In this document: piece by piece, positions 19,882 through 52,534 of the stretch
How the letters are laid out: each line of letters begins with the position of its first letter
How positions within the stretch are numbered: the stretch's first letter is position 1
IMG/VR virus record: IMGVR_UViG_3300044516_001715
Span: 1-52,534 of that record
DNA: 52,534 bases
Origin: a virus
Strand: one strand, 5' to 3'
Made by a program: the position numbers and the translations under genes
Notes under the pieces: model-generated
Seen by the model: the letters and a program-made list of their open reading frames with translations, nothing else
Told to the model about the DNA's origin: nothing
The model's database searches: none

Positions 19882-20194
19882 AATAATAAAAATATTGTTC
19901 TACAGCTGTTTTATAATCTTGGAGGGACGGTATCAGAGGGAACGGTATCACCAAGATAGCACCATCATAGATGTAATTTTCTAGTCCCCCGAAAATTGGA
20001 TTAGCCTGTAGAATCAACCATCCAAATACAGGGGAACTATAATATTGTTGTGAAATTCTATCTAATCTACTTTGACCTACTTTGTAAATGTATGTTTGGT
20101 CTGTAGTTTTTGCGGGAATAGTCACATATGGAACTATAGTTTGTTCTCCGTTGAATGTAAATTCATTATATCTGTTGTAATAAGGGTATGACAT
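19871..20194 (-). CDS. LysM-domain baseplate protein, T4 gp53-like
   Basis: The ATG at 20194 gives 107 aa. It overlaps the preceding stop by one base (TGATG); an in-frame TTG one codon earlier is unlikely. The core YKVGQSRLDRISQQYYSSP, then GWLILQANPI and a final YDGAILVIPFP, is a LysM fold as found in T4 gp53 and other small baseplate proteins. LysM in such proteins is usually structural rather than enzymatic. It sits between two giant tail genes and overlaps both, so its amount is probably set by coupling. Confidence 0.8.
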   Translation of the reverse strand: MSYPYYNRYNEFTFNGEQTIVPYVTIPAKTTDQTYIYKVGQSRLDRISQQYYSSPVFGWLILQANPIFGGLENYIYDGAILVIPFPLIPSLQDYKTAVEQYFYYYGR

Positions 20195-23100: not shown

Positions 23101-25203
23101 TATAACATTTAGAACCGAAGGATGGTCTACAACAATTTTCCATTGTAAACTACCACCCCTACTTGTGTTAGTATATGTGTAAATTGGTTCTGGTCTACCA
23201 AGGAAATCTTGTGTTTTCCAATTTGCTGTCACATTTTCATTGAATGTCAAACCATAAGGTGGGAACCACATTACTCTACCGCCATTAGGACCCCTTTCAC
23301 AAATAGGTAATTCATTCACATTTATACCTGGTGTGTTTGATGTTCTCCAAGCTAAATTTTCTAATGAAAACATATATTTCTTAGCAAAGGCTGAATTATT
23401 TGTTCCAATCAAATTTGATGAAGCTTGACCGCCCTCTTGTTTGTTAGGCACTATATTCAAGTTATAGGTTTTATCAAAAACTGAATATGAAAATCTTCTA
23501 CCTTCATTTACAACGCCATCTTGTTTTTGTAAATCATTATACTGAAGATATGGTATATCCTTGGCAAAAACTCTACAGTATTCTGTACCAACCTCGTTTC
23601 CTAAAGAACCAACATAACTTAGTACTCTCGAACCTTTAGTTAGTTCTTTATACCCATCATTGAAAACTTTACTGACTTGGTCCATAGCATTACCAACATG
23701 TTGCAGTCTCCTACCGCCCTGTGGTTGGCTATTTATAATTCTTTGAGTATCATCAAGTATTGACCCTTGTCTAAACTCTAAATTTACAGACTCAGTTGAA
23801 TTGTATGATGAAGGTTTGAAGTCTTGGTCTAACTGTGTTACTTCTCCTCCAATACCAACTTTTTTTCCCGCATTCCCCCTGTATTTTGGGGATACCCAAG
23901 TGAATCCACCTTCAATTCCACCGCCATTGATATAAGCAGGTCCATTAGCTCCAAGTTTAATCTCTCTATTCGGTCCTTCATATAGTTGTGCTAACTCTTG
24001 TGGACCATATACAGGGGCTTGAACCTCTTGTCCGAATTCGTTATTCGGTAAATCCCCTGTAGGTGAAAAAACTCTTGATGGTTCTGAGGTTGGTGAACCT
24101 ATGTAGTAATTTGAATTGTTTATTGTTGTACCAAATAAAGCCCCACCAACTCTATCAAAAATATTCCTATCATATCCTGGCTTATATTTGTTATAATTTA
24201 TACTGCCGAATAATCTTGACCTTTGTCCTCCTCCAGTATTGTCCAAAAATATTTGTGAACCTGTCTTCGGGGGTCCTAATAACTGTCCAAAAAAATTACC
24301 CACAGTTGTGTTGGACCTTTGAAATGCTAACTGAAGTTGTTGTATTGTGGTTGGAAACCCTGAATTTATCGATGGGTCGAAATAAGAACCAGGTATTGGC
24401 GATGTTGGTATTATACTACCAGCTAATCTGAGGGCGAAATCCGTTGCAGCTAAAATTGGTCCTGATGGTTGGGTAATTACCCAATTTGGTTCGATGAGAG
24501 GAACCCTTGTAGTCAAAAGATTGAATATATCTGTACCACTATCTATATTGAAAAGATTTATTCTTCCCAACGTTTGTTGCCTTATTTCTGTGGCAATTCT
24601 TTCTTCAAATGACCTTCTGAGTGTAGATGCGCCGAGTCTGGCAATGTATGAATCTTGTGTCAAAAGACCGTTACTTCCCTGAGGGTCTCTTGTAAGTAGA
24701 ATTTGTACAGGATTATATGAAGAGGGTACAAAAGTTGATGGGTATGGTTGATTATTATATATGTTTCTTGAACCGTTTCTAATCCAATCAGGTTCTGTAA
24801 TCATTTCACCACTATCAACCGTCCCGTTACCACCGGTACCATAAGCGTTTCTTGGTCTCCATTCCCTTGCAGCAATTGGTGCTTGGTCTATGATGTGAGC
24901 ATCTTGTTGTCCTGGTCCATACTCACCTTGGTTTGAACGTGTGTTATTCAATCCACCCACATCTCCAACAATTCTATACCCACCTTCAGCCCCAAACTGA
25001 TTCAGAGGATAAAGTCTGTTGGCTAAAATTGGCGAATCAATTAAAACATCAGGACTGTCAGTAACCGACAACTGTGATTGTTGATACTCATATGTTATCG
25101 GGGGGTCAGGACGATTTGGAGATTTCGGGTAAGGTGCCAAATTTCTCGTCATCAATCGTGACCTGAACCTTTCGGAACTACTATAATCTAATGGGCTAGG
25201 CAC
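20194..25203 (-). CDS. 1669-aa virion protein with internal OmpA-like domain
   Basis: The first codon is probably GTG at 25203 (MPSPLDYSSSERF); the next in-frame ATG is 17 codons later. The first half is Gly/Asn/Pro-rich and low in recognisable motifs. About residues 820-940 hold VVIDLTGSASAANTKDYNLE, then LSKRRIESVKNLF, an OmpA-C-like peptidoglycan-binding pattern with the conserved Asn and Arg. About residues 1100-1200 contain ILRVGDFYNTKIIPTSLSLA and further beta structure. The gene lies between the tape measure and LysM genes in the baseplate region. A role in holding or sensing the cell wall during infection is inferred from the OmpA-like domain. Confidence 0.75.
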   Translation of the reverse strand: MPSPLDYSSSERFRSRLMTRNLAPYPKSPNRPDPPITYEYQQSQLSVTDSPDVLIDSPILANRLYPLNQFGAEGGYRIVGDVGGLNNTRSNQGEYGPGQQDAHIIDQAPIAAREWRPRNAYGTGGNGTVDSGEMITEPDWIRNGSRNIYNNQPYPSTFVPSSYNPVQILLTRDPQGSNGLLTQDSYIARLGASTLRRSFEERIATEIRQQTLGRINLFNIDSGTDIFNLLTTRVPLIEPNWVITQPSGPILAATDFALRLAGSIIPTSPIPGSYFDPSINSGFPTTIQQLQLAFQRSNTTVGNFFGQLLGPPKTGSQIFLDNTGGGQRSRLFGSINYNKYKPGYDRNIFDRVGGALFGTTINNSNYYIGSPTSEPSRVFSPTGDLPNNEFGQEVQAPVYGPQELAQLYEGPNREIKLGANGPAYINGGGIEGGFTWVSPKYRGNAGKKVGIGGEVTQLDQDFKPSSYNSTESVNLEFRQGSILDDTQRIINSQPQGGRRLQHVGNAMDQVSKVFNDGYKELTKGSRVLSYVGSLGNEVGTEYCRVFAKDIPYLQYNDLQKQDGVVNEGRRFSYSVFDKTYNLNIVPNKQEGGQASSNLIGTNNSAFAKKYMFSLENLAWRTSNTPGINVNELPICERGPNGGRVMWFPPYGLTFNENVTANWKTQDFLGRPEPIYTYTNTSRGGSLQWKIVVDHPSVLNVIVNKVLNNESNKERIDGILESFFAGCKKYDLYELAKRYYTIPPNELQDIQQAISSKNLSKEQVEVAKNTLATGARDTQNSSQPITQPSQNTPQDTLKQFQNFALYFPNDIPAPPSVSPVVGSYSQYYTDYINQSTTTYASQGVFINNVVTQNYNHVQVNLFNELRTVMKNNPLSKVVIDLTGSASAANTKDYNLELSKRRIESVKNLFASDQLLNSYIQSGRITFTENPLGEGAEKVQVFQWDASSNQFISNTEFQSCSDNDDNNNSLAGQSITNSTAMACRRVKIKSITISAPEPSQQPPNIVPTQPTNTSIPPSPPTRVEPKFRPTDNISKRIVRALISECDYFETIKQDSPMLYDNLKDKLKFFQPSFHSTTPEGLNSRLTFLQQCMRPGDTIPTVKATAGGTYELEYNNAVNTAFGTPPVLILRVGDFYNTKIIPTSLSLAFEGLDINPEGIGIQPMIANITLNFNFVGGQGLKTAVDKLQNALTFNYYANTEMWDDRADPTDDSYKVLDKEFLQSVAQPTAPTTNQVQNIAALSNSTTIGDRQTNVITATDETGRISYKNFMDTFVSTTQTYFTSVFNQSKSIFSQYNNAMLQQWSIERKYQEGTFYTDPNTITYLYGKADNLQKNVNKVFTDMIAQINAGQDPWIEWISNTDKDFSRAAKDQMKRNYLDLVRAKQGTFINAATTIVQDVVNTQQAYLQYVSRANIVPYSGTSWDNTDGFQETNGNVVIYWVTGTTGVGPVNAGNPNPPTKTNEELDQDIDIIKVSLNDFYTKITSNVNFTVGSDTYTGILVRINSTEISTIKNDVFFPFSKNPLFSGNPFRRQYMVLSNDLKGDAYQTFKNAMIGNLIENQSLAPRGASMRYSEEFDAYWTGIVKPAFDEEDSLTQTFLNEMETNQMKNFLNFTPFPLGKPREFDYSKSSAPDPNQEILIKSLGAKTNQNTDNKWNTPTTPGGDVLISKVKLN

Positions 25204-35197: not shown

Positions 35198-35563
35198 ATG
35201 GAAATACGTCCACCAAGTAAAATATATCTCAAAGACAGCCCGTTACACGGATTAGGTGTTTTTTGTTCGGAAGAGATTCAGTATGATGAAATTATAGATA
35301 CCTGTCCCTTTCTACTATTTCCTCATAGAAGACAAGAAAAATTACCCTTTTTTCAAAATTATGCTTTTTGTTGGCCTAAATCAGAAAATTGGATAAACCA
35401 TGTTTTAGTTTTAGGATACGGTTCATATTACAATCACAATGAGGTTCCAAACGTAAGTTGGGATTCTGACACAGATAGAAATGTTTTTGTTTTTAAATCT
35501 TTGAGAAAAATTAAAGTTGGTGAAGAACTTTTTATAGATTATGGAAATGGTGTTAAATTTTAA
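35198..35563 (+). CDS. SET-domain protein (putative protein lysine methyltransferase)
   Basis: The 121-aa protein consists almost only of a SET domain. The N-terminal SPLHGLGVFCSEEIQYDEII is the usual GxG start. GYGSYYNHNEVPNVSW carries the NHxxxPN cofactor motif. FKSLRKIKVGEELFIDYG has the GEEL-x-x-DY catalytic tyrosine. The post-SET zinc cysteines are absent. SET enzymes transfer methyl from S-adenosylmethionine to lysine in proteins. No histone-like substrate is visible in the window, so a virion or host protein may be modified. It opens a plus-strand block and is followed 11 bases later by the SNF2 gene. Confidence 0.85.
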   Translation: MEIRPPSKIYLKDSPLHGLGVFCSEEIQYDEIIDTCPFLLFPHRRQEKLPFFQNYAFCWPKSENWINHVLVLGYGSYYNHNEVPNVSWDSDTDRNVFVFKSLRKIKVGEELFIDYGNGVKF

Positions 35564-37348: not shown

Positions 37349-38842
37349 ATGAATGTAAAGAACGAAAACAAATCCGAATCACAAAGAGAAATATTGATTG
37401 AGGAAATGAAAAAAATCGGAATTGAAAAATTACCATACTCCTACTCAGCTCTGAAACCCTTTATTGATGCCGAAACTATGGATTTCCATTATAATAAACA
37501 TTATAAGGGATATGTAGACAAATTAAATCAGGCTTTATCGAAAAAGAAAATGGGGGATTGGGATTTAGAAAAAATTATAAAAAATATTAGTAGATACGAC
37601 AAAACAGTCAGAAACAACGCAGGTGGGGCATTTAACCACGCACTTTTTTGGAACATGTTGACACCCACACCCGTTAGATTAAAGGGCGAACTACAAAAGA
37701 AAATTTTTTCTGAATTTAAAACATTTACAAATTTTAAGAAAAAATTTGAACTTATTGCCAAAGAAAGATTTGGTTCAGGATGGGTTTGGTTGGTTCTAAC
37801 AAAGAACAATAAACTCAAGATAATGTCAACCCCTAATCAGGACAACCCTCTAATGAACATTATTGAAGGTGGTGGTTTTCCTTTATTAGGTCTTGACCTT
37901 TGGGAACACGCATATTATTTGAAATATAAAAATAAACGCGATGAATACATTTCTAATTTTTGGAAAGTAGTGAATTGGGATTTTGTTAGTAAATTGTTTG
38001 AATTGAAAACACAAACAAAGTTATTAGAAAATAAAATATCCAAACAAATAATGACAGAAGGTAAATCTTATATTGTGGATTGTTCAACAGAGGACGAAAA
38101 ATTTTTTCAAAATTTGATGAAAGACAATGAAATAAGTAAATTATATGGAATGGGAATCTATGCCGCCCTTAAACAAGTAGATTGGTTAGAATTTAAACCT
38201 AAAGACCCTGAAAAAAATATAATGCAAGGATTTTACAAAAATGGAGAAAGGCACAACATCAGTTATTTAGCAGGTAACTACAGAGCTTTTTGTCTAATTA
38301 CCAAAAGTGTAAACAGATTACTCAAAGATAATAATCGTGATATATTACATTTTCAAAACAGAACACCAAAAGAACAAGTGCTCGCAGTAAAAAAACTCAC
38401 ATCAATTTTAAAAAAATACTCCAGTAAAATATTTGTTGAGGATTCCCCTTTCTTTCAAAAGATTATGTCAAACTTGAGTAATAGTAAGACAAAAGGGGAC
38501 AAGGTAGAAAATCAAACGAAAAAAAGATTGGAGAATGAATTCGGATTAGAAAATGTAGATATTCAAAGTGAGTTTGGTTCCGAAAGTGATAATCAAGGGA
38601 CAGACGGTCAAATTTTCAAAAATGAAAAAATAAATACTTTTCAAATCAAGCCATTAACAAATTACAAAATAGTTGATGATTTAGTTTACGTAGAAACCAC
38701 CGGTAAAATTTTACCTTATGAACAAGATTGGATGATTTTCACCAATAAATTCGAAACAATAATTTTAGAAAATAATGCCACAACGTTTGGTAGTAACGCT
38801 TACATATTCCCTGTCAGTAGTTTGATTTATACCTTAGTATGA
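37349..38842 (+). CDS. Mn-type superoxide dismutase fused to a PD-(D/E)XK nuclease-like domain
   Basis: Residues about 24-215 of this 497-aa protein are an Fe/Mn superoxide dismutase. All four metal ligands are present by alignment to E. coli SodA: His47 (FHYNKHYKGYV), His97 (NNAGGAFNHALFW), Asp183 and His187 (GLDLWEHAYYLKY). Gly93 with Gln164 in TPNQDNPLM fits the Mn type. The remaining 280 residues are unrelated to SOD. Their end has Glu387 (GDKVENQTKKRLE), Asp419 (GTDGQIF) and Gln432-x-Lys434 (FQIKP), an E...D...QxK pattern of PD-(D/E)XK nucleases. The middle (residues 235-375) is of unknown type. No frameshift separates the parts. The SOD call is strong; the nuclease call is a motif-based inference. 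Confidence 0.87.
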   Translation: MNVKNENKSESQREILIEEMKKIGIEKLPYSYSALKPFIDAETMDFHYNKHYKGYVDKLNQALSKKKMGDWDLEKIIKNISRYDKTVRNNAGGAFNHALFWNMLTPTPVRLKGELQKKIFSEFKTFTNFKKKFELIAKERFGSGWVWLVLTKNNKLKIMSTPNQDNPLMNIIEGGGFPLLGLDLWEHAYYLKYKNKRDEYISNFWKVVNWDFVSKLFELKTQTKLLENKISKQIMTEGKSYIVDCSTEDEKFFQNLMKDNEISKLYGMGIYAALKQVDWLEFKPKDPEKNIMQGFYKNGERHNISYLAGNYRAFCLITKSVNRLLKDNNRDILHFQNRTPKEQVLAVKKLTSILKKYSSKIFVEDSPFFQKIMSNLSNSKTKGDKVENQTKKRLENEFGLENVDIQSEFGSESDNQGTDGQIFKNEKINTFQIKPLTNYKIVDDLVYVETTGKILPYEQDWMIFTNKFETIILENNATTFGSNAYIFPVSSLIYTLV

Positions 38843-43198: not shown

Positions 43199-44485
43199 TT
43201 AACATGGACCTTCATATTCAATTACAAGACCTGAATTATCAACACGGTAATACCCCGTCAAAGAATCTGTACTATTAGTATACCAAAGGTTTCCACCATC
43301 AAATGGAGTAGTTAAACTACTATCTGTATAAAAAATAGTAACACCTACTATCACATCGAACCAACCGAGCTCTGATGAATATATTGTTTGAGTAAGTGTT
43401 TTTGGGTCACATAAAGGTAATACGGAATCACCTGAGGAAATATTATATGGTGCGGATGCCGGAGTATTAGATGGTGTAATTGTAGGTGTTGGCGTAGGTG
43501 TGTTAGTTTGGGTTGGTGTAATGGTTGGAGTTGGTGTCACGGATGGATATGAAGAAAAAGAACAAGAGACTAAGGAGGACGCACCCACAAATTGAGTATT
43601 ATGAACAAATGAACCACCAAAAGGAGAATTCATTTCAAATTTATAAATTCCCAAAAGGGTAAAAAGGTATGTTTTTCCTTCAAACTGTGCAATCCCTAAT
43701 GGATTATTAAACGAACTATTTGAAACTGATTGAATTTGACTTCTAAATTCAAAATTACCTGTATTGTAATCGTACTGGTCTATTCCTATATAATAGACTC
43801 CAGAAATCTCTTGGAACCAACCATTTAGAAATTTACCATCACTTGTTATCATAAAAGTCCAATTTGAATTCTGTGGAAGTGTAAATTTTATAGTCCCACT
43901 CATCTGGGTTTGGGGTGGTGCCGGGATTGATAATTCCCATACATTCCAATCATAATCCACGAAAACTAATTTGTTTGGGCCGGCAACACTTAAACCCCAA
44001 GAATTATTTAAAATTGGAACATTTGAAGGAAAATCCAACAACCTGTAATTCGGAGAAATTGTATATGGTGGCTGTCCAGAAATATTCCATTCCCTAATAG
44101 TATATCTAAAACCAAATGGCGCGGGATATAATAACCATAAATTATCATTTGTATGAGCGACTTGCCATGGATTTAAACCACCACCACTATTTGGGACTTG
44201 AAAGTTTACACTTATATCCAACAATGGATTATAATAGTAAGTCTGTCCAAAATTATTCAATGTAATTAAAACACAATCAGGTAATGTTGAAAAAATTGTT
44301 TCGATAAAAATAGAATTTTCAAAAAAATTAGAGTAAGAAAGTGTTTCATCTAAAACCCAAAAAGATTTTGATTGGTTTGGGTTCAAAGGTACTTGATATT
44401 CCCACTCAGAGGTAAAACATTTTTGATAATTGAACGTAATTATATTGTCACCTGTATTCGATATTTTAATTTTTTTACAACTCAT
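43199..44485 (-). CDS. Modular adhesin-like virion protein with Thr/Pro-rich linker (paralogue 1)
   Basis: The 428-aa protein has three parts. The N-terminal 65 residues (SNTGDNIITFNYQKCFTSEW...) are shared with the 410-aa protein at 49520-50752, and are probably the virion-attachment domain. A beta-propeller-like middle follows, with repeated short W/Y/F beta strands (NDNLWLLYPAPFGFRYTIRE and later units). A Thr/Pro/Ser linker (about residues 315-345, TPTPTITPTQTNTPTPTPTI) then precedes a C-terminal domain of about 80 residues. It ends the island transcribed through the glycosyltransferase genes. A tail-fibre or decoration role is inferred from the modular design. Confidence 0.7.
   Translation of the reverse strand: MSCKKIKISNTGDNIITFNYQKCFTSEWEYQVPLNPNQSKSFWVLDETLSYSNFFENSIFIETIFSTLPDCVLITLNNFGQTYYYNPLLDISVNFQVPNSGGGLNPWQVAHTNDNLWLLYPAPFGFRYTIREWNISGQPPYTISPNYRLLDFPSNVPILNNSWGLSVAGPNKLVFVDYDWNVWELSIPAPPQTQMSGTIKFTLPQNSNWTFMITSDGKFLNGWFQEISGVYYIGIDQYDYNTGNFEFRSQIQSVSNSSFNNPLGIAQFEGKTYLFTLLGIYKFEMNSPFGGSFVHNTQFVGASSLVSCSFSSYPSVTPTPTITPTQTNTPTPTPTITPSNTPASAPYNISSGDSVLPLCDPKTLTQTIYSSELGWFDVIVGVTIFYTDSSLTTPFDGGNLWYTNSTDSLTGYYRVDNSGLVIEYEGPC
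43457..43545. repeat. Degenerate GGTGTTGGTGTA-type repeat coding a Thr/Pro linker
   Basis: About 90 bases of 6- to 12-base imperfect repeats. They encode alternating Thr and Pro on the minus strand within adhesin paralogue 1. Confidence 0.75.
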
Positions 44486-44498
44486 ATCGAAAATGTAT

Positions 44499-44876
44499 TT
44501 AACAACATCCTGTCTCGGAAATGAAACTATCTTGTACGTTTATATATAATTCCTCTCTGATTGGTAATATTAAATTTCCCTCATCATTCTTGATAAGAAA
44601 TTGACCTTGAAATCTACCTACTGTATTTGTATCTCGTGAAGTGAATCTAAAATAAACATAGTATTCTGGTGTAGCACCCAAAGGGAGAGTAATGGAAGTT
44701 ATGTAACAAGGAGCAGAGACAACTTTGGGTATACCAGTCTCGACGTTTATCATGGTAAAATAAATTGTTGAGATTGGTAAAGCCTCCATTAGCTCCAAAT
44801 ATCCTGCTCTGCCATCTTTTACAACTTGCATTTTGAGAAGTGGTAAAGTGGCATTTTTTTTGATGAAAAATTCCAT
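44499..44876 (-). CDS. Small fibre- or baseplate-type virion protein
   Basis: The 125-aa product begins MEFFIKKNATLPLLKMQVVK. This resembles N-terminal domains of some phage fibre or upper-baseplate proteins that start with a beta strand and LP-x-L. It is beta-rich throughout and ends in SETGCC. It lies 13 bases upstream of the 428-aa adhesin-like gene, so the two may act together. A TATTTAT motif ends 4 bases before the ATG, again a possibly leaderless gene. Confidence 0.55.
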   Translation of the reverse strand: MEFFIKKNATLPLLKMQVVKDGRAGYLELMEALPISTIYFTMINVETGIPKVVSAPCYITSITLPLGATPEYYVYFRFTSRDTNTVGRFQGQFLIKNDEGNLILPIREELYINVQDSFISETGCC

Positions 44877-44880
44877 AACA

Positions 44881-44887
44881 ATAAATA
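44881..44887 (-). promoter_or_regulatory. Putative late promoter motif TATTTAT before small fibre-type gene
   Basis: Coding-sense TATTTAT (context GTATATTTATTG), 4 bases upstream of the ATG at 44876. It separates the two virion genes downstream from the glycosyltransferase genes upstream. Confidence 0.45.
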
Positions 44888-44892
44888 TACTG

Positions 44893-46566
44893 TTATGACT
44901 CTTTACGTAACTTTCTATCGTAGTGGTCGAACCTATTATGTTCGGTTGGTGTCATAAGAAGCAAGCCGGGTTTGAGTTTACCTGTAACAGTCTGTTGATA
45001 CATATAACTCATCCATGTTTGTTCAAATGGGTGTGCCCAAGTTGTTTCCAAAAACATTTTTTTATTACCCGGTCTTGAAACTATTTGGGGCCAATTACAA
45101 TAGTATATTTCACCTGTCGCATATGGTATACCCTTATGTGAATCAATTTTGGTGAATTTTGTTTTGGGTGCATTTGGGTCTAATCCCATATTTGGAAGAC
45201 GAGGTTTTTCAGGCCAAAATTTTAATCTCACATCTTGAGGTACATTATACCAAGACCATTGAGTACTATTATCACCGAAAAATTCTGAAAAATTTAATTT
45301 TAAAAAATCGAAATTTTCTTTTTTAACAATTTCTAAAGATTTAGAATATAGATTATCTGTGAACCTATTGAAACCATTTTTACAAACTTCTTGATTTGGA
45401 TAGAAAAACATATCATCTTCAAAAAAAAGATAGTAATCTAATTCGGTTTCTTTATCAAAGTGTTCTGCAATCCATTGTCTCCCACCACAAATTCCTAAGT
45501 TGTCCTTTTTTATTTCTTCAAAATCATACTCGTCACATAATTGACTATAAGTTGAATCTGTTGTCCTATCAGTCGAATTATTCAAAAGAAATTTTTTTGT
45601 TTTCAATAAAAAATCTTTATCATAAGAATTCATTGATTGTATTAGGGTTTCAAATTGTTCCGGACTATTGAATGAAATGACATACAAACCTACCTTGTTT
45701 GTATCTAAGGATTCTTGAGAAACAAAACCACTTTCAGATTTTACTTGTAATTCATTATTTTTTAAATCCTCAAAAAATTTACCTATGAGACCATTACCTT
45801 CTATTTCAAAATAATTTATCAAATCTGAGTGTTTGTAACACATAATACTGAAAATAGATTCTTCTGTTCCCATCAAACCCATGTCCAAGGTAGATTTCAA
45901 TAAACCATAATAAATAGAATTTATTTCACCTATTGTATATTTTGGACCTCCGAAAAAACCACCTCTTGCAACTTTGTCCACTTTATCACCTGCAATCTCA
46001 TTTAGTTTTGAATATTCAAAACCGTGAATTTCATTATCCGCCTCATATGGAAAACAAATAAAAGAAAATTTCGAAATATATTTAGAAAGATTATTTAGGA
46101 CTTTGTCGTGTGTAAAATATCCTGGGTGTACTGTGTTTGTTATACCTCCATCAATCCAAAACATATACTCAGAGTTAAATTGGTCCATAATTTTCGCGTC
46201 ATGAAGTAGAAAAACTTTTGACATAACCAAAGGGTTATAGTTTTCCAATTTTGATTGAGTTGAATCTCTGAGCCAACCTGCAAGATTTTTCCAATTTTCA
46301 TTGTTTCTTATCAATTGGATTTTTTCAAAAAACTCATTTTCTCTAAACCAAGATAGCGGTCTTCTGATAAATTGTGTATTTTCTTTAGTTCTTTTTTTGA
46401 AAACGAACTCTTCAAGACTTTCGTCTCCAAAAATAATCAAGTTTTCAGAAACATTCAGAAGGGAATCAAATTTTTCTAAATAGTGTTCATAAGGTCTTTT
46501 CCAACCTTCATTTAATTCAGACCTGCCTATATCCCAAATACCTGTTACTAAAGTAATATTATTCAT
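44893..46566 (-). CDS. Two-domain glycosyltransferase (HtrL/YibB-like plus GT-A-like domain)
   Basis: The 557-aa protein has an N-terminal domain (about residues 1-275) of the HtrL/YibB type. It shows ITLVTGIWDIGRSELNEGW, then YNPLVMSKVFLLHDAKIMDQ and the YMFWIDGGITNTVHPGYF core. A second domain (about 290-557) starts GLYVISFNSPEQFETLIQSM and has LDYYLFFEDDMFFYPNQE, with an EDD metal motif as in GT-A glycosyltransferases. It ends with a basic tail. It overlaps the next upstream gene by 8 bases. It probably transfers sugars to an unknown acceptor; protein, surface glycan or DNA cannot be told apart from sequence alone. Confidence 0.78.
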   Translation of the reverse strand: MNNITLVTGIWDIGRSELNEGWKRPYEHYLEKFDSLLNVSENLIIFGDESLEEFVFKKRTKENTQFIRRPLSWFRENEFFEKIQLIRNNENWKNLAGWLRDSTQSKLENYNPLVMSKVFLLHDAKIMDQFNSEYMFWIDGGITNTVHPGYFTHDKVLNNLSKYISKFSFICFPYEADNEIHGFEYSKLNEIAGDKVDKVARGGFFGGPKYTIGEINSIYYGLLKSTLDMGLMGTEESIFSIMCYKHSDLINYFEIEGNGLIGKFFEDLKNNELQVKSESGFVSQESLDTNKVGLYVISFNSPEQFETLIQSMNSYDKDFLLKTKKFLLNNSTDRTTDSTYSQLCDEYDFEEIKKDNLGICGGRQWIAEHFDKETELDYYLFFEDDMFFYPNQEVCKNGFNRFTDNLYSKSLEIVKKENFDFLKLNFSEFFGDNSTQWSWYNVPQDVRLKFWPEKPRLPNMGLDPNAPKTKFTKIDSHKGIPYATGEIYYCNWPQIVSRPGNKKMFLETTWAHPFEQTWMSYMYQQTVTGKLKPGLLLMTPTEHNRFDHYDRKLRKES

Positions 46567-47446
46567 ATATTCTATTAAACTCTTCTAAAATTTTATAAAA
46601 ACTTTTGTTTTTCAAAAATAATTCTTCACTCGTACCTTGAGGTGCATTATCCCTACACCACCAAATATCAAAGTGTTTCCTCACAAATAAATCGTTGTGA
46701 TTGTAAAACATCAATGTCATTATTTGTTCTTCATGTGGCAAAAATTTACAAGAATCGTCTGACAAAATTTTTACAACATAATCTTCAAAAATACTAACCA
46801 TGTTATCCCACTTATCTTTATGTCCTCCAAACAACCCACCAATAATGTGAATTTGTCTTATGTAGTTTGTGTACCATTTTTGGTCAACAGTACCTGACCA
46901 GTAATTTCTTTCATTCTCTTTCCCCAGAATTAAAAATTTATCACTTGAGTCTATAATTAAATTATCTGAGAATGAATTATTGAACAGGGTACTTTCATAA
47001 AATCTTCTCATACCATGTGGAAAATTCAAATATTTCAAAGGTATGAGACCGCAATGTGAAAGTCCTGCATCAATCCAGTAGTAATAATCATACGACCTAT
47101 CTTCGTTCCACCACCAAGAAAACTTTGAATATTGAATTTCAATACACCTATCACCCCTTTTAATTTCTTCAACGTTTTTTCTAAGATTTATTAAATCTTT
47201 GAACTTACAATTGTTCAAATCAAAAACCTGAAACTTTAACTTTTCTTCTGATATTTTGTTTTCCTCGTAGAAAAAATTTTTCAATGATTCCAATTCTCTT
47301 TCAGATGTATAACATAAAAAATCTGAGTTTGTCATTTTCAAAAGAGATAGAAGACTATACCTATAATGAGTTCCTCGGGCAGGTCTACCGCCTAATTCAG
47401 TACCATTCAAATCACTATAGATTGCTGTTATAAATTTAATTTTCAT
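46559..47446 (-). CDS. HtrL/YibB-like glycosyltransferase-type protein
   Basis: The 295-aa product begins MKIKFITAIYSDLNGTELGG and has the family core YDYYYWIDAGLSHCGLIPLK, followed by IIGGLFGGHKDKWDNMV and LPHEEQIMTLMFYNHNDLF. These match the N-terminal domain of its neighbour at 44893-46566 in order and spacing, so the two are probably related. The family (WlaTC/HtrL) occurs in surface glycan clusters. It overlaps both neighbours (11 bases upstream, 8 downstream), which indicates tight co-expression. Confidence 0.72.
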   Translation of the reverse strand: MKIKFITAIYSDLNGTELGGRPARGTHYRYSLLSLLKMTNSDFLCYTSERELESLKNFFYEENKISEEKLKFQVFDLNNCKFKDLINLRKNVEEIKRGDRCIEIQYSKFSWWWNEDRSYDYYYWIDAGLSHCGLIPLKYLNFPHGMRRFYESTLFNNSFSDNLIIDSSDKFLILGKENERNYWSGTVDQKWYTNYIRQIHIIGGLFGGHKDKWDNMVSIFEDYVVKILSDDSCKFLPHEEQIMTLMFYNHNDLFVRKHFDIWWCRDNAPQGTSEELFLKNKSFYKILEEFNRIYE

Positions 47447-48179
47447 TATAGTGAAAATGTTTTTTTTCTTCTTTGAATTTATTATTTATTTCTTGATTCA
47501 TGAATTTATGGTGTATTTTCACAGGGGAATATAGATTCCAATTATATGTTTGAGTATAAAAATTATTATACATCCCATGTGAAACATCCGAATATGAATT
47601 TTTTTGTGGTGCTATTGGTAAAATTGGAGTATATGATTGAAATTTGGGATACACATTTTTGACTAAGTGTTCGTCTATTGGAAGAACATAATCACCACTA
47701 TGGAAAGCATAATCTTTTATTGACCTCACGGCATCTAAAACTTTTAAATCATAAATCAAAATATTCGTTGCAAATATTTCTGTCAATCTATCATTTGGTT
47801 TTGGAGGGAGATTAGTTATATCCAACAGCAAATTATATTTCGAGCTAATATTCACGGGTCTATTGAGTGTCGGTGCTAAATTCATAACACCGAATTCAAT
47901 GTCCGATATTTGTGACTCAATGTCCTGAAGTAATGATTTACAATATGGCATGAATTGACAATCATCCTCAATAATCATAACCTTTTCATACCCTCTCTTC
48001 TCAGATATTCTCAAAATTTCTAAATGAGATAATGTACATCCCATGTAACTATTTCTGTTTATTGCATTAAATAACTCGAAATCCCAACCGACATATTCTA
48101 ACTCAGACTTTATATCTAATAATCTATCAGGCCTTGATTCCAAGTTTATTACAAACTTAGGTAACTCTTGAAACTTCAT
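47436..48179 (-). CDS. GT25-family glycosyltransferase
   Basis: The 247-aa product has the GT25 pattern. LPKFVINLESRPDRLLDIKS is at the N-terminus. NRNSYMGCTLSHLEILRISE and GYEKVMIIEDDCQFMPYCKS with the EDD metal motif lie near residues 45-80. The family includes bacterial LPS galactosyltransferases and animal collagen galactosyltransferases, so the acceptor could be a glycan or a protein. It follows the GT60-like gene by a one-base overlap (TAATG). Confidence 0.85.
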   Translation of the reverse strand: MKFQELPKFVINLESRPDRLLDIKSELEYVGWDFELFNAINRNSYMGCTLSHLEILRISEKRGYEKVMIIEDDCQFMPYCKSLLQDIESQISDIEFGVMNLAPTLNRPVNISSKYNLLLDITNLPPKPNDRLTEIFATNILIYDLKVLDAVRSIKDYAFHSGDYVLPIDEHLVKNVYPKFQSYTPILPIAPQKNSYSDVSHGMYNNFYTQTYNWNLYSPVKIHHKFMNQEINNKFKEEKKHFHYNEN

Positions 48180-49444
48180 TAGCTTACATGATTATGAGAT
48201 AATTGTCCTGTTAGTCTGTCACACCAACCTTTTGATTCTGAATGTGGCCAAACAACCCAATATTTAGGTAATACATCAGTTTGGAACTCTCTCCAAATTT
48301 TACAATATTTGTCAGGGTCATTCATAAGTCTAGAAATTTCAGACTTGTCGGCATCTTTTCTATACAAAGTTTCGTCATTAGGTCCATGAAACGCAACCAC
48401 CCAAAAATCATAGTCCTTTTCAGGAACTGAAGAATAACCAACATCAATACAATGTTTATAGACAGTACAAAAGGATTTTTTCCAATCTTCTTCCGATTCA
48501 ATATTAGGACTTGGAGGATAGTTTTTATCTAAACACCATCTGTCCACAGCCCTTTTTTCAAATAAAAGACCTGAATATTTTTCATACTCTCTTAGTGTTC
48601 TTATGGGTCCAAAACCATATGGACCATCGTGCCCCTCTTGTTTTTCACCATCCATACCAAATAACTTTCTATTGGTAAGATGTGAATGTCTATTTTTATC
48701 TCCCCATGTTTTATCATCATCCCATTGTTTAGTCCTACCTTTACGAGTATACTCGTGATAGATTACAGGAATATGTGGGTGAAATAAATCATAACCCCAA
48801 GTATAAGCTCTGGCGGCAATTGATATTTCTTCACCGTGAAAATAATATTCAGGATTGTGTTGTACCTCTTTTGCGAAAGAACCTAATGTAAAACAAAAAT
48901 GTGCAGAATAAAATCTTGCAGGAACTGGCTTTTTCATTTCTCTCCAACCGGGAATTGTTTCAGGTAGAAAGAATACTGCACCCTCAGGAATAAATCTATC
49001 AAACGCCATTCTCCAAGCATCTTGAGCTCTTCCTTGTGGGTCATTATCAGGGTCAAAGGAGGGTACATAACCCGTAAGTAGAGGTTTTTTATACCCATCC
49101 TTTTGTAGACCCTTTATCATTTTGATTAGGATATCATCCCAATCTTTTACAAACCTCATGTGAGAATCAATCTGCAATGTGTATTTTTCATTTTTATACA
49201 ATTGTTGTACTAAATGTCTTGCCCAACAAACCCCTTTAGCTTCTTGATATGGAATGTCTAAAATTCTAAACCTCTCATCATTTCTCCATTCGTCTAAATT
49301 ATCGAAACCATCAGTTTCTGAATATTGTCTAGCAATTCCTAAAACTAAATTTTCAGGTTTTTTTGCATTGGATAACATATCTTTTATTGTATGAACAAGT
49401 TGTGGGTCTCTGTAAGATGCAATTTGTATAAAAATTTTACTCAT
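48179..49444 (-). CDS. GT60-like (polypeptide GlcNAc-transferase family) glycosyltransferase
   Basis: The 421-aa product begins MSKIFIQIASYRDPQLVHTI. It has AKGVCWARHLVQQLYKNEKY and TLQIDSHMRFVKDWDDILIK, the D-x-H metal motif of this family. FYSAHFCFTLGSFAKEV and YYFHGEEISIAARAYTWGYD follow. Members I know act on proteins, for example the Skp1 hydroxyproline GlcNAc-transferase of Dictyostelium. It is the first of four overlapping transferase genes and lies just after a terminator that ends a Thr/Pro-rich adhesin gene. The family is fairly certain; donor and acceptor are unknown. Confidence 0.85.
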   Translation of the reverse strand: MSKIFIQIASYRDPQLVHTIKDMLSNAKKPENLVLGIARQYSETDGFDNLDEWRNDERFRILDIPYQEAKGVCWARHLVQQLYKNEKYTLQIDSHMRFVKDWDDILIKMIKGLQKDGYKKPLLTGYVPSFDPDNDPQGRAQDAWRMAFDRFIPEGAVFFLPETIPGWREMKKPVPARFYSAHFCFTLGSFAKEVQHNPEYYFHGEEISIAARAYTWGYDLFHPHIPVIYHEYTRKGRTKQWDDDKTWGDKNRHSHLTNRKLFGMDGEKQEGHDGPYGFGPIRTLREYEKYSGLLFEKRAVDRWCLDKNYPPSPNIESEEDWKKSFCTVYKHCIDVGYSSVPEKDYDFWVVAFHGPNDETLYRKDADKSEISRLMNDPDKYCKIWREFQTDVLPKYWVVWPHSESKGWCDRLTGQLSHNHVS

Positions 49445-49472
49445 AAATTATATTTGGTATAAAAATAAAAAA

Positions 49473-49491
49473 CCTCCCGTGAAAGTGGAGG
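49473..49491 (-). terminator. Rho-independent terminator between adhesin paralogue and glycosyltransferase genes
   Basis: Stem CCTCC pairs with GGAGG over a 9-base loop. In the minus direction it is followed by TTTTTTATTTTT, about 30 bases after the 410-aa gene stop codon. Confidence 0.75.
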
Positions 49492-49519
49492 GTTGATATT
49501 TTATTTAAATAAATTTTTT

Positions 49520-50752
49520 CTACGTACAACTATATGGTCCCGAATCTTGATTTATCAATCCTCCAGTCACAACATACTCAGTCCCGTCTGTACAGATAGA
49601 ATAAGATGATGCGTCAGGAATGAAATGAGAATAAGGATTACCATCACAACCCGTCCATTCTATTGAACCTCCACCAACACCGGCACTTAAAGTATATCCA
49701 CTACAACTTGGAAGTCCTGATGTTAGAGAAGGTGTGGGTGTTGAAGTTGGTGTTTCAGTGTTAGTTGGAGTTACACTTGGTGTTACGGTATTAGTCGGTG
49801 TGACGGTTGGAGTTTCTGTATTAGTCGGAGTCACACTTGGTGTTGCTGGTATTGTTGATGTTGGTGTAGGTGTCACTGTATTTGTAGCGGTTATTGAAGG
49901 TGTTGGTGTGTTAGTACTAGTAGGACTTGGCGTAAGCGTGGTTGTTGGAGTGACAGTTGGTGTAGGGGTATTGGTAGGGGTTTTTGTCGGTGTGATTGTA
50001 GTTGTCGGGGTTGGTGATGGCGTAGGTGGTGGCGCCGCACTCAATGCACATAAACTAATTCTAACACCTTGATATTGAATGCTTGGTCCCTGAGAAAATG
50101 TTATTTGGGTAAAAGGTGTGGTTGTTTCAACAATAAATCTGGCTAACCCATCAGTATTGACAGCAGTTATTACTCCATTACCAATCTGCATAGGACAACC
50201 CGCACATTGAGCAATATTTGGAGTTCCCGCGTTCGTTGTTATATATAATCTGTCTCCGTTTGAAGCATCACCATTCCACACACCTGAATTAAACATCAGA
50301 GAGTTTAGTGGTTGACTAAAAATAAAAACTATTGTTGAACCCGAAGCAAAAGAACTCACGCCACCAGGTCCAGGCCCAATTGTGATTGGAACTCCCTGAC
50401 ATGGGTAGTTGTTTGGACCGTATGTGAAAGTATTTGTTGCACAGTTTGCATTTTGTGAAAGACCTGTTATTGATATACCGTTACTAACAACAACCTGACC
50501 GTTACAGGGTGTATTTATGGTATTACAGGTTGTGCAATTTTCCGCCCCTCTAAAAAAGTTTTCTGTTTGTATATCTACATTCTGTAAAAAAAATGATGGA
50601 ATCGCAAAAGTGTCCGAGATAGCCCAGACTCTTTTGGTTTCATTAGGTAAAACTTTCACCTGATATTCCCACTCTGCGGTAACACATTTCTGATAATTAA
50701 AAGTGACAAGAGTATCTCCTGTATTTTTCAGGGTGTATTTAAAACAATTCAT
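49520..50752 (-). CDS. Modular adhesin-like virion protein with long Thr/Pro-rich linker (paralogue 2)
   Basis: The 410-aa protein shares its first 65 residues with paralogue 1 ([20 protein letters not shown]), the likely attachment domain. A Cys-rich middle domain follows (about residues 70-235, [14 protein letters not shown] and a beta-rich body). The Thr/Pro/Ser linker covers about residues 237-345, more than 100 residues of TPT-type repeats. A 60-residue tip ends SGPYSCT with five cysteines. A T4-like TATAAATA lies before the ATG in the normal orientation. Fibre or decoration function is inferred from modular design. The tip differs entirely from paralogue 1. Confidence 0.72.
49725..50035. 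repeat. Long degenerate repeat coding the Thr/Pro linker of paralogue 2
   Basis: About 310 bases of imperfect GTTGGAGT/GTTGGTGT-type units. A 30-base block encoding [10 protein letters not shown]-like units recurs near 49760-49850. The opposite strand is open as a Val/Gly frame only because of the composition. Confidence 0.8.
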
Positions 50753-50758
50753 TTTTTT

Positions 50759-50766
50759 TATTTATA
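50759..50766 (-). promoter_or_regulatory. T4-like late promoter core TATAAATA before adhesin paralogue 2
   Basis: Coding-sense TATAAATA within about 8 bases of the ATG. It is the single example in the window of the T4 late core in the canonical orientation, against twelve of the reversed form. Confidence 0.35.
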
Positions 50767-50809
50767 TAATCCGAAATTTTAATTTTTGTCATAGTTCCAA
50801 ATGAATATT

Positions 50810-52534
50810 TTAAACGTTCAGAACTGCACTTATGTAAACAGTCTGCCCTGTGTTCCAACTAGTTGATGCTGATTGAATCAAAACAGCGTTACCTGTGTTC
50901 CCTGTAATTGGCGGAACACTGATTCCTGTACCGAACACAAATCCATCGCCCGCAACACCTGGAGGTGTTCCTGTATTAGCTGACCAATATTTGAATGCGT
51001 TTGTATCACCAGAGTAAATCGCGGTACTTCCTGTTTGAGTCATTGTAATTGTAATACTTTGACCTGTAAATTGTGAGAAATAATTTGTTCTATCAATTCC
51101 ATCAGTGTCAATTGAGTTCCAATATATTCCTCTACCACTTGTTGTCAATTCATTTGGATTTGTACTTCCTGAAGTGATTGAAGGAGCACTATTCATAATT
51201 GTATTACCCGTTGTTGGAAAATTGTATGGTAATACAATTAAATTAAATGAATATCCTGTTACTGGTTCAGGTGTAACACTTGGTGTTGGCGTTAATGTTG
51301 GAGTAACTGATGGTGTTCCAGTATTAGTTACACTTGGTGTTGGCGTACTTGTAGTTGTTGGTGTAGGTGTTACTAAAGTTGCCTCACATGCTGCACAGTT
51401 AACATAGAAAAGAAGTGGTGTTGCACCGTCTGTTGGAGTTGCCACGGTCTTCTCAACAATTCTATAACATCCACTTGGTGTTCCTCCTGTGAATGTGAAA
51501 TTGAATACGTCACCAGATGCTAATGTCGATGGTCCTAAATCAGCAACTAATACGTTCAAAGTGGTACATCCCGAAATTGTGTATGTAGTAACCGAACTTA
51601 AGTCAGTTGTAGTTGGTGTTGGTGTGTTCGTTGGTGTTTCACTAGGTGTTTCACTTGGGGTTTCAGTTATTGTTGTAGTTGGTGTTTGAGTTAAAGTTGG
51701 TGTAGGGGTAGGTGTTGGTGATAATGTTCCTATAACACAAATATCAACAGCCCCTTCATTAGGAGTGAAAAGAGGGAAGAATACATGTAATGGTTGTGTT
51801 ACAGCGTTGGTTGATGTGTAAATTAAAGTTGAATTATAATAATACTTTACACTTATTCCATCATAATCCACTTTCCACACATCAGATGATGAAACAACAG
51901 TACCGACATTTAAAACGGCAACTTGACCACCGTTTTCATATATTTCAACATTGTCACTATTAGTAAGGTAAATACCATATGACGTATCCTCATATGTGCT
52001 GCCAGGGGTAGCGGTTGGGTTGTAAGAGAATCCACCCATTAAAATATTACCATTCGCAGAAGTTTGGAAGGTTACGGAAACAGGACCAGTAAATGTCTCT
52101 AAAGAATATGCCGATGAATCCCATCCTGATGTTCCATCATTTATCGCACTATTACTTGTTGTTGTAGCATTGTTACCTATGAAAGTAAATGTTTCACAGT
52201 TTAAAATTGGTGATGGAGTTGGAGTTTGTGTTGATGTGTTTGTTGGTGTAGGTGTAGAGGTTGATGTTTCGGTATTTGTTGGTGTAGGAGTAGATGTTAA
52301 AGTTTCAGTTGGTGTGTTAGTTGCTGTTTCAGTAGGTGTATTAGTTGGAGTTTCACTTGGTGTATTAGTTGGGGTTGGAGTTATATTAGAAATCTCACAA
52401 TCATTACATCCACCATATCCAAATGATGCGGTAAACGCGTCGTCTATCGGAGCATTTATCTTACCAATGACTGAATAACATCCACTTGGTGTTGCTCCTG
52501 TGAATGTGTAATAGTTTACATCTCCAGGAACTAT
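50810..52534 (-). CDS. Large repeat-modular adhesin-like protein with Thr/Pro linkers (5' end outside window)
   Basis: The frame is open from the stop at 50810 to the right edge (575 codons), so the N-terminus lies outside. An internal ATG at 52039 is not the start, because homologous domain sequence continues upstream. Two copies of a Cys module are present, with FTGATPSGCYSVIGKI near 52450 and FTGGTPSGCYRIVEKT near 51470. Each ends C-x2-C-E and leads into a TPTPT linker. Between them lies a lectin-like beta domain (NSAINDGTSGWDSSAYSLET to IYENGGQVAVLNVG). The C-terminal 170 residues form another beta domain. Repetition of module-linker units suggests an extended fibre or surface adhesin. 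Confidence 0.72.
   Translation of the reverse strand: MVPGDVNYYTFTGATPSGCYSVIGKINAPIDDAFTASFGYGGCNDCEISNITPTPTNTPSETPTNTPTETATNTPTETLTSTPTPTNTETSTSTPTPTNTSTQTPTPSPILNCETFTFIGNNATTTSNSAINDGTSGWDSSAYSLETFTGPVSVTFQTSANGNILMGGFSYNPTATPGSTYEDTSYGIYLTNSDNVEIYENGGQVAVLNVGTVVSSSDVWKVDYDGISVKYYYNSTLIYTSTNAVTQPLHVFFPLFTPNEGAVDICVIGTLSPTPTPTPTLTQTPTTTITETPSETPSETPTNTPTPTTTDLSSVTTYTISGCTTLNVLVADLGPSTLASGDVFNFTFTGGTPSGCYRIVEKTVATPTDGATPLLFYVNCAACEATLVTPTPTTTSTPTPSVTNTGTPSVTPTLTPTPSVTPEPVTGYSFNLIVLPYNFPTTGNTIMNSAPSITSGSTNPNELTTSGRGIYWNSIDTDGIDRTNYFSQFTGQSITITMTQTGSTAIYSGDTNAFKYWSANTGTPPGVAGDGFVFGTGISVPPITGNTGNAVLIQSASTSWNTGQTVYISAVLNV
51240..51385. repeat. Thr/Pro linker repeat (proximal to C-terminal domain)
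   Basis: Imperfect GGTGTTGGCGTA-type units in the partial adhesin gene, following the second Cys module. Confidence 0.7.
51610..51725. repeat. Thr/Pro/Ser/Glu linker repeat (middle)
   Basis: Imperfect repeats encoding TPTLTQTPTTTITETPSETP, with tandem SETP units (tttcacttggtgt on the plus strand). Confidence 0.7.
52205..52385. repeat. Thr/Pro/Ser/Glu linker repeat (distal)
   Basis: About 180 bases of imperfect repeats encoding TPTNTPSETPTNTPTETAT and similar, between the first Cys module and the lectin-like domain. Confidence 0.7.

Follow-up and report, generated by a model that had tools for sequence, protein, structure and literature searches.

A likely phage-encoded mucin-type O-glycosylation module: a GT60 transferase operon flanked by Thr/Pro-linker genes

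Why would a virus keep four putative glycosyltransferase genes in one operon, flanked by genes for proteins with long linkers rich in Thr and Pro? The question arises from IMG/VR virus record IMGVR_UViG_3300044516_001715, of which we analyzed positions 1 to 52,534; this whole stretch is referred to as the window. The 52.5-kb record is AT-rich (34.9% G+C) and contains contractile-tail genes, among them one for a sheath (phrog_23) and one for a tape-measure-like protein. Its last 9.3 kb harbor eight minus-strand genes, TPc, TPb, GT60, GT25, HtrL2, HtrL_GT, p125, and TPa, and a gene for a family-B DNA polymerase (PolB) comes after TPa. An initial annotation had described three Thr/Pro-linker genes that flank a GT60/GT25/HtrL operon, an arrangement that was confirmed between positions 43199 and 52534, with all genes on the minus strand. 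Based on sequence comparisons and structural models, this region is likely to be a phage-encoded mucin-type O-glycosylation module. The analysis established the genes, a linkage between them that is both conserved and recurrent, the fold predicted for GT60, and a co-occurrence of GT60 with Thr-Pro repeats in the large phages tested.

The transferase operon and the Thr/Pro linkers

The GT60 gene (48179..49444) encodes a putative polypeptide glycosyltransferase, the putative initiating enzyme of the module. Its product matched PF11397, the Pfam entry that we take to correspond to CAZy family GT60, with 230.7 bits (cut-off, 21; E = 4.6e-68) and, along almost the whole protein, phrog_24687 (E = 6.2e-163). 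A sequence search against solved structures returned 0 matches at E ≤ 1. The AlphaFold model, based on 42 aligned sequences, had a predicted local distance difference test (pLDDT) score of 93.8, and a Foldseek search with this model placed mucin-type polypeptide N-acetylgalactosamine (GalNAc)-transferases at all of ranks 1 to 30. In VIA-align, 29 polypeptide GalNAc-transferase entries reached Z scores of 19.2 to 22.4 over 258 to 287 residues, with 10 to 14% sequence identity in the structural alignments, and the next-best entry was a Leptospira transferase (Z = 17.1); that other fold families are missing from this ranking does not count against them. By closest match, the modeled enzyme has a GT-A fold of the polypeptide-transferase kind, a likeness that alone is no proof of the GT60 acceptor. 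Residues D93, H95, and H230, which form a conserved D-x-H and a later His, were invariant in the 42 sequences and presumably correspond to the metal ligands of GT27 enzymes. The initial annotation had stated that GT60 members modify polypeptides. Among protist polypeptide alpha-N-acetylglucosamine (GlcNAc)-transferases, TcOGNT1, a GT60 enzyme, makes GlcNAc-alpha-O-Thr in Trypanosoma cruzi mucins (PMC9472816); those of Skp1 modification work as soluble enzymes in the cytosol, with other transferases, of families prevalent in prokaryotes, acting after them (PMC8724618).

Adjacent genes of the four-transferase operon overlap at their ends, by 1, 11, and 8 bases. The GT25-like glycosyltransferase gene (47436..48179), which shares one base with GT60, matched PF01755 with 43.8 bits (cut-off, 24; E = 3.4e-11), the best stretch covering only 51 of 199 profile positions. 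The two-part protein HtrL_GT (44893..46566; 557 aa) matched HtrL_YibB (PF09612) with residues 3-255 (75.7 bits; cut-off, 24.1; E = 5.9e-21). It is longer than HtrL, a feature absent from the initial annotation, and its C half resembles another glycosyltransferase domain, with a weak phrog_842 match at residues 351-424 (E = 4e-4). Two HtrL/YibB-like proteins had been annotated originally; the assignment stands for HtrL_GT by its PF09612 match, and HtrL2 (46559..47446; 295 aa), a putative glycosyltransferase, showed no PF09612 match at E ≤ 1 and no relevant Pfam match. The HtrL likeness of HtrL2 rests on a hidden Markov model (HMM) of the clade, which weakly matched an HtrL fusion protein (L201|5; E = 1.3e-5). 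The GT25 and HtrL proteins are candidate chain extenders. None of the eight genes encodes an evident membrane segment, the highest 19-residue Kyte-Doolittle mean being 1.55 (in TPa) and, among the four transferases, 1.01.

Linkers were defined by 20-aa segments with at least 65% Thr, Ser, and Pro, at least four Pro, and at least six Thr plus Ser; the lengths obtained depend on this rule and on greedy longest-open reading frame (ORF) calling, which may misname frames in GC-rich DNA. Among the 38 ORFs of the window, linkers of at least 30 residues were present only in TPa, TPb, and TPc, the other 35 remaining below 30. One of these, a 1669-aa ORF (20194-25203), has a Thr/Pro stretch of 25 residues, and 200 shuffles of the remaining window proteome produced 0 qualifying segments. 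TPa (43199..44485; 428 aa) has one linker of 47 aa (43433-43573), and TPb (49520..50752; 410 aa), encoded immediately upstream of GT60, one of 123 aa (49691-50059). The fiber-like TPc (50810..52534; 574 aa, truncated at its 5' end by the window edge) has three, of 69, 51, and 50 aa (52190-52396, 51587-51739, and 51245-51394), alternating with other domains. The proteins thus contain the dense Thr/Ser/Pro stretches expected of acceptors of mucin-type O-glycosylation, in agreement with the original description of the linkers as dense in potential O-glycosylation sites. TPa and TPb have an N-terminal domain of about 66 aa in common (50555..50752 in TPb), with 42% identity across 80 aligned aa. 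In TPb it is modeled with five strands and one helix (AlphaFold mean pLDDT of 84 over 80 aa), and no PDB match was found for it at E ≤ 0.001. Furthermore, TPa residues 298-413 matched phrog_38031 (E = 1.7e-4) and TPc matched phrog_15511 (E = 6.1e-12).

Linkage within the clade and across the GT60 tree

The initial annotation had suggested surveying related genomes for linkage of linker and transferase genes; such linkage was found to be conserved in the clade of the window and, for its GT60 part, recurrent on the GT60 tree. The clade was represented by the best 80 of 492 viral-contig stretches that encode a relative of the window GT60. A Thr/Pro (TP) linker was present in the flank of 77 of these 80 loci, at most one gene from GT60 in 72 and at most three genes away in 76; in 72 loci it was encoded by the gene just upstream of GT60. 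In the three loci without a linker (L054, L055, and L070), the contig edge lies inside that upstream gene. An HtrL relative occurred in the flank of all 80 loci. The order GT60-GT25-HtrL2-HtrL_GT was intact in 63 of the 77 loci with a full HtrL_GT, and in the other 14 the stretch from GT60 to HtrL_GT differs by insertion or replacement and comprises 3 to 7 genes. In L058, whose HtrL_GT is cut and which is thus outside the 77, a GT10 fucosyltransferase-like and a rhamnosyl O-methyltransferase-like protein are encoded between GT60 and HtrL_GT. GT60 and the last transferase are constant and the middle genes variable, a pattern in line with a glycan that has a fixed start and a variable outer part.

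Judged by sequence, the linker proteins of relatives resemble virion parts, and TPa, TPb, and TPc themselves may also be located in the virion. The complete syntenic TPc gene in L003, a locus whose GT60 is 100% identical to that of the window, encodes 1371 aa. The largest linker protein of L018 has three Laminin_G_3 lectin-like stretches and matched phrog_8510 ("virion structural protein"), a match that perhaps covers the lectin-like domain only; two of the four large clade linker proteins scanned had no Pfam match. A crAss muzzle C-terminal domain (PF25729; E = 2.7e-20) is present in the TP protein encoded two genes away from GT60 in L189, and the linker association therefore extends to a crAss-like tail protein. 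At the same locus (L189:1-7533), GT60 and a Gly_transf_sug protein sit between two Thr/Pro proteins, and at L335:6382-9990 the Thr/Pro-linker protein adjoining GT60 also has an Rv2525c-like glycoside-hydrolase-like domain.

Loci outside the clade were fetched with other GT60 queries, and our own HMM found GT60 in 71 of 79 bacterial loci, the other 8 being dropped. A linker was present in the flank of 43 of the 56 loci of the L151 clade (at most three genes from GT60 in 41), of both L220 and L221 (2 within three genes), and of 15 of the 71 bacterial contigs (14 within three genes). Clustering of GT60 at 70% identity, with clusters dropped when their representative locus had fewer than five genes, resulted in 74 clusters, of which 13 had a linker at most one gene away (null, 4.3) and 21 at most three genes away (null, 10.9); 0 of 5000 permutations reached these counts. 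At 60% identity (51 clusters), the linker was at most one gene away in 7 (null, 2.3), and 18 of 5000 permutations were as high. On a tree of the 74 representatives, made with a quick method, the linker-proximity label changes 15 times, and at least 12 of these changes are forced by well-supported branches. The scattered changes therefore point to more than one inherited arrangement, and the linkage, kept in the clade and recurring on the tree, indicates that the co-location is no local accident.

The reverse search started from the repeats. A Thr-Pro repeat DNA pattern occurred in at least 120 stretches of viral contigs. A linker ORF was found in 102 of the 120 listed and a GT60 relative in 10, compared with 1 and 0 of 72 controls, which were contigs found by an arbitrary 21-base pattern and were unmatched for habitat or phage type. 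Whole contigs of at least 20,500 bases comprised 49 TP records, from 80 listed entries (one of them a repeat record), and 30 of the 72 controls; 40 TP loci listed without lengths were excluded. PF11397 was found on 12 of the 49 TP contigs versus 0 of the 30 controls (Fisher p = 0.0025), and on 11 of the 40 TP contigs whose fetched stretch contained a linker ORF in frame (p = 0.0016), the other 9 lacking one there. The 49 include some contigs from the clade of the window (L089 has HtrL_GT and the TPb-type N-terminal domain).

GT60 loci in large phages and bacteria

A tblastn search of 50,697 phage records with the window GT60 (E ≤ 1e-5) retrieved only XacN1, CM1, and RAS14, and two further GT60 queries retrieved the same three phages. 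Their GT60 proteins are 44 to 46% identical to that of the window, and their HtrL_GT homologs 39.5 to 44% identical over the full length; HtrL2 has a relative in XacN1 and RAS14. In XacN1, GT60 is followed by a carbamoyltransferase gene, HtrL2, one unknown gene, and HtrL_GT. Among 457 ORFs of XacN1 (bases 1-320,000), 15 have linkers of 39 to 401 residues, scattered across the genome; ORF369, ORF370, and ORF372 adjoin the tail sheath and sheath-stabilizer genes, ORF325 comes after two genes for baseplate wedge proteins, and ORF232 to ORF237 also encode Thr/Pro linkers. PMC5852040 reports "at least two glycoproteins" in the XacN1 virion by proteomic analysis and names PXD008065 as the deposit of the virion mass spectrometry data.

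Thr-Pro repeat DNA was present in all 13 GT60-bearing large records (XacN1, RAS14, CM1, and ten uncultured ones); RAS14 and CM1, whose repeat counts mirror each other, are perhaps almost the same phage. The pattern read backwards gave one match each in three GT60-bearing records. Among five hand-picked RaK2-like phages (RaK2, K64-1, GAP32, CBB, and 121Q), 0 had the repeat DNA, and PF11397 was likewise not found in them. The window itself is AT-rich, so that low G+C content alone need not account for the absence of repeats from these five.

Bacterial GT60 genes also had partners with Pro-rich repeats. These were VgrG proteins in Trinickia, Paraburkholderia, and Cupriavidus and, as judged by eye, apparently a contractile sheath protein in Azospirillum, an extracellular contractile injection system (eCIS)-type protein in Sphingomonas, and, in Saprospiraceae and Jiulongibacter, small proteins that look exported. 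The genes after GT60 in Jiulongibacter (L300) encode a carbamoyltransferase and an HtrL relative, much like in XacN1. Some of these "bacterial" contigs (L303 and L319) are, by eye, probably phages. In the Burkholderiaceae, all 11 VgrGs encoded 2 to 4 genes from GT60 (L314, L316, L321, L322, L323, L328, L329, L330, L331, L333, and L340) have C-terminal Pro-Ser/Thr repeats. About eight repeat unit types were distinguished by eye, and a Ser or Thr near Pro was retained despite the unit differences. In L330, genes for TssF, TssG, an ImpA_N protein, and a fimbrial protein precede GT60, and those for an Rhs protein, a small protein, and VgrG follow it. The control for this tail pattern was run after the fact: 39 genomes of the Paraburkholderia group were searched, 35 matched, 30 loci were fetched, and 27 contained a VgrG ORF by the rule applied, one per genome. 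The tail was present in 2 of these 27, the sole GT60-positive genomes, one of which is the genome of L329 and thus among the 11, and was absent from the other 25.

The conserved 125-aa protein p125 (44499..44876), encoded between the transferase operon and TPa, had also gone unmentioned in the initial annotation. Its gene lies no more than three genes beyond HtrL_GT in 75 of 76 clade loci, and the protein had no Pfam or PHROG match. Several relatives have an opposite-strand ORF of about 206 to 226 aa between HtrL_GT and p125 (L018:14543-15223 and L045:10075-10695), possibly a mobile gene. On the plus strand of the window, a 497-aa fusion protein (37349-38842) has a complete Fe/Mn superoxide dismutase as its N half (PF00081, PF02777), followed by about 280 residues without a significant Pfam match, and relatives of its gene were found beyond PolB in many clade loci. 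A 121-aa ORF (35198-35563, plus strand) seems by eye to resemble a SET-domain methyltransferase.

Proposed mechanism, alternatives, and known systems

The simplest fit to these observations is a cytoplasmic phage enzyme that acts on the phage's own Thr-rich stalks, with extension by GT25 and HtrL enzymes. The three linker proteins would be fiber or adhesin-type virion proteins, with their Thr/Ser-Pro stretches as acceptors. GT60, presumably soluble and with a predicted polypeptide GlcNAc/GalNAc-transferase fold, would add the first sugar, which may be alpha-GlcNAc, to linker Thr (or Ser) in the host cytoplasm, and GT25, HtrL2, and HtrL_GT, possibly in this order, would extend and vary the glycan before or during virion assembly. 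Most likely, the glycan lends the stalks stiffness and protection, or else masks them, and its outer part seems variable; the initial annotation had suggested protease protection, masking, or mucus binding as possible benefits. The self-glycosylating fiber cassette proposed initially is supported by the linkage in the clade and on the tree, the co-occurrence in large phages, and the modeled GT60 fold; as a hypothesis, that reading appears well supported, and its reach seems wider than proposed.

Several results weigh against it. In the XacN1 clade, 7 of the 17 loci had a linker in the flank but 0 of 17 within three genes of GT60, and 56 of the 71 bacterial GT60 loci had none in the flank. At 50% identity the proximity test weakened: 3 of 24 clusters had a linker at most one gene away (null, 1.0), and 250 of 5000 permutations were as high. 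The linker label was somewhat clustered on the GT60 tree (shuffled mean, 18.6 changes; 16 of 500 shuffles as low), and 37 of the 49 TP contigs had no GT60. The 11 VgrGs have a similar gene neighborhood and are more alike each other than the controls; because the neighborhood is common to them, they are not independent events. Another five Vgr-like proteins near GT60 have no repeat tail. The first test in bacteria asked whether GT60 and repeats co-occur at the genome level in the Paraburkholderia group, and it failed: repeat DNA, counted regardless of reading frame, was present in 8 of 13 genomes with GT60 and in 96 of 131 without it. The VgrG tails were noticed after this test. The repeats are equally common without GT60 in this group, and such linkers therefore need no GT60; there is no genome-level association.

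Three other explanations were weighed against a mucin-type module. The cassette might glycosylate virion proteins off the linkers, the transferase and linker genes sharing a variable fiber module since both diversify the particle surface. The strong differences among relatives in the genes upstream of GT60 and the nonadjacent position of linkers and GT60 in the XacN1 clade would fit this, as would the glycans at capsid and tail-tube C termini of mycobacteriophages (cited in PMC12619734). We nevertheless consider it unlikely, given that the GT60 family is found near Pro-Ser/Thr repeats of unrelated proteins, namely, VgrG tails and, by eye, exported, sheath, and eCIS-type proteins. It is quite improbable that the transferases modify a host surface glycan, lipopolysaccharide (LPS) or capsule, with the linkers as plain unmodified spacers. 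The Pfam entry of GT25 is named after LPS biosynthesis, HtrL/YibB is located by LPS genes, and Thr/Pro repeats occur widely in the Paraburkholderia group even without GT60, all points in its favor. The modeled GT60 fold, in contrast, is that of a polypeptide transferase, and in the large phages tested GT60 occurs together with repeats. Moreover, the absence of an evident membrane segment from the eight genes, to which the search for a flippase or polymerase was limited, indicates that neither is among them, and host-glycan remodeling is poorly supported because these genes show no membrane protein.

A T4-like glucosylation of modified bases in phage DNA is very improbable. The weak match of the HtrL_GT C half to phrog_842, a beta-glucosyl-hydroxymethylcytosine alpha-glucosyltransferase family, points in that direction, but GT60 is a polypeptide-transferase family and the PF00303 genes of large relatives argue otherwise. 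Such a gene was present in 15 of 29 large records, and in all 10 that were fetched the Asn of the thymidylate synthase motif P-x-N-I-A-S is retained, a position at which a dCMP hydroxymethylase would carry Asp. No PF00303 match was obtained in the other 14 records, which are possibly fragments, and other base-modification routes were not searched. DNA glucosylation is thus poorly supported, because these ten genes look like thymidylate synthases.

The mucin-type reading may extend beyond this phage. We see an even chance that bacteria and phages own a mucin-type O-glycosylation in which GT60 is dedicated to Thr/Ser-Pro stalks, with an HtrL/carbamoyltransferase/GT25 extension set, and which is a possible source of the protist pathway. 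The stalks would be those of phage tails and fibers, type VI VgrG spikes, eCIS parts, and small exported mucins. That the prokaryotic GT60 system is the counterpart of the protist GT60 pathway forms part of this proposal and is just as evenly balanced. Mucin-type chemistry is known from protists and animals, and what would be new is its occurrence in phage virions and bacterial injection machines. In a search of open-licence papers, covering long result lists in part, we found none naming GT60 with phages, or VgrG glycosylation. Phage virion glycosylation has been reported from few systems, and, if the pairing of GT60 with Thr/Pro stalks holds true, glycosylated virions could be predicted from sequence, GT60 relatives being present in 492 viral stretches. 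It would also suggest a purpose for the Pro-Ser/Thr repeat tails on some type VI VgrG spikes and provide a likely pathway for the HtrL/YibB family, a "protein of unknown function" in Pfam. The putatively soluble transferases are amenable to tests in Escherichia coli.

The module shares features with several known systems. With T4 DNA glucosylation it has in common phage glycosyltransferases and the weak phrog_842 match of one domain, whereas the PF00303 genes inspected from 10 large relatives gave no sign of a dCMP hydroxymethylase, and GT60 is of the polypeptide type. Virion glycosylation in mycobacteriophages was reportedly described by Freeman et al. in 2023. According to PMC12619734, phage-encoded transferases act on virion proteins there, as proposed here, but the glycans are located at capsid and tail-tube C termini; the same source assigns four core glycosyltransferase groups to "moraphages." The GT27 mucin-type GalNAc-transferases have the solved folds closest to the modeled GT60, whose D-x-H and later His presumably match their metal ligands, and differ from it in sharing only 10 to 14% sequence identity. 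The protist GT60 enzymes, TcOGNT1 and Dictyostelium Skp1 GnT1, belong to the same family as the PF11397-matching window enzyme, and the T. cruzi acceptor is mucin-like and Skp1 is modified by soluble cytosolic action. In contrast, the window enzyme is phage-encoded beside fiber-like genes, its acceptor and sugar are putative, and its neighbors are GT25-like and HtrL proteins. The jumbo phages XacN1 (Xanthomonas) and RAS14/CM1 (Stenotrophomonas) share GT60, HtrL_GT, Thr-Pro repeat DNA, and linker proteins with the window; XacN1 differs in having a carbamoyltransferase between GT60 and HtrL2 and linker genes scattered genome-wide.

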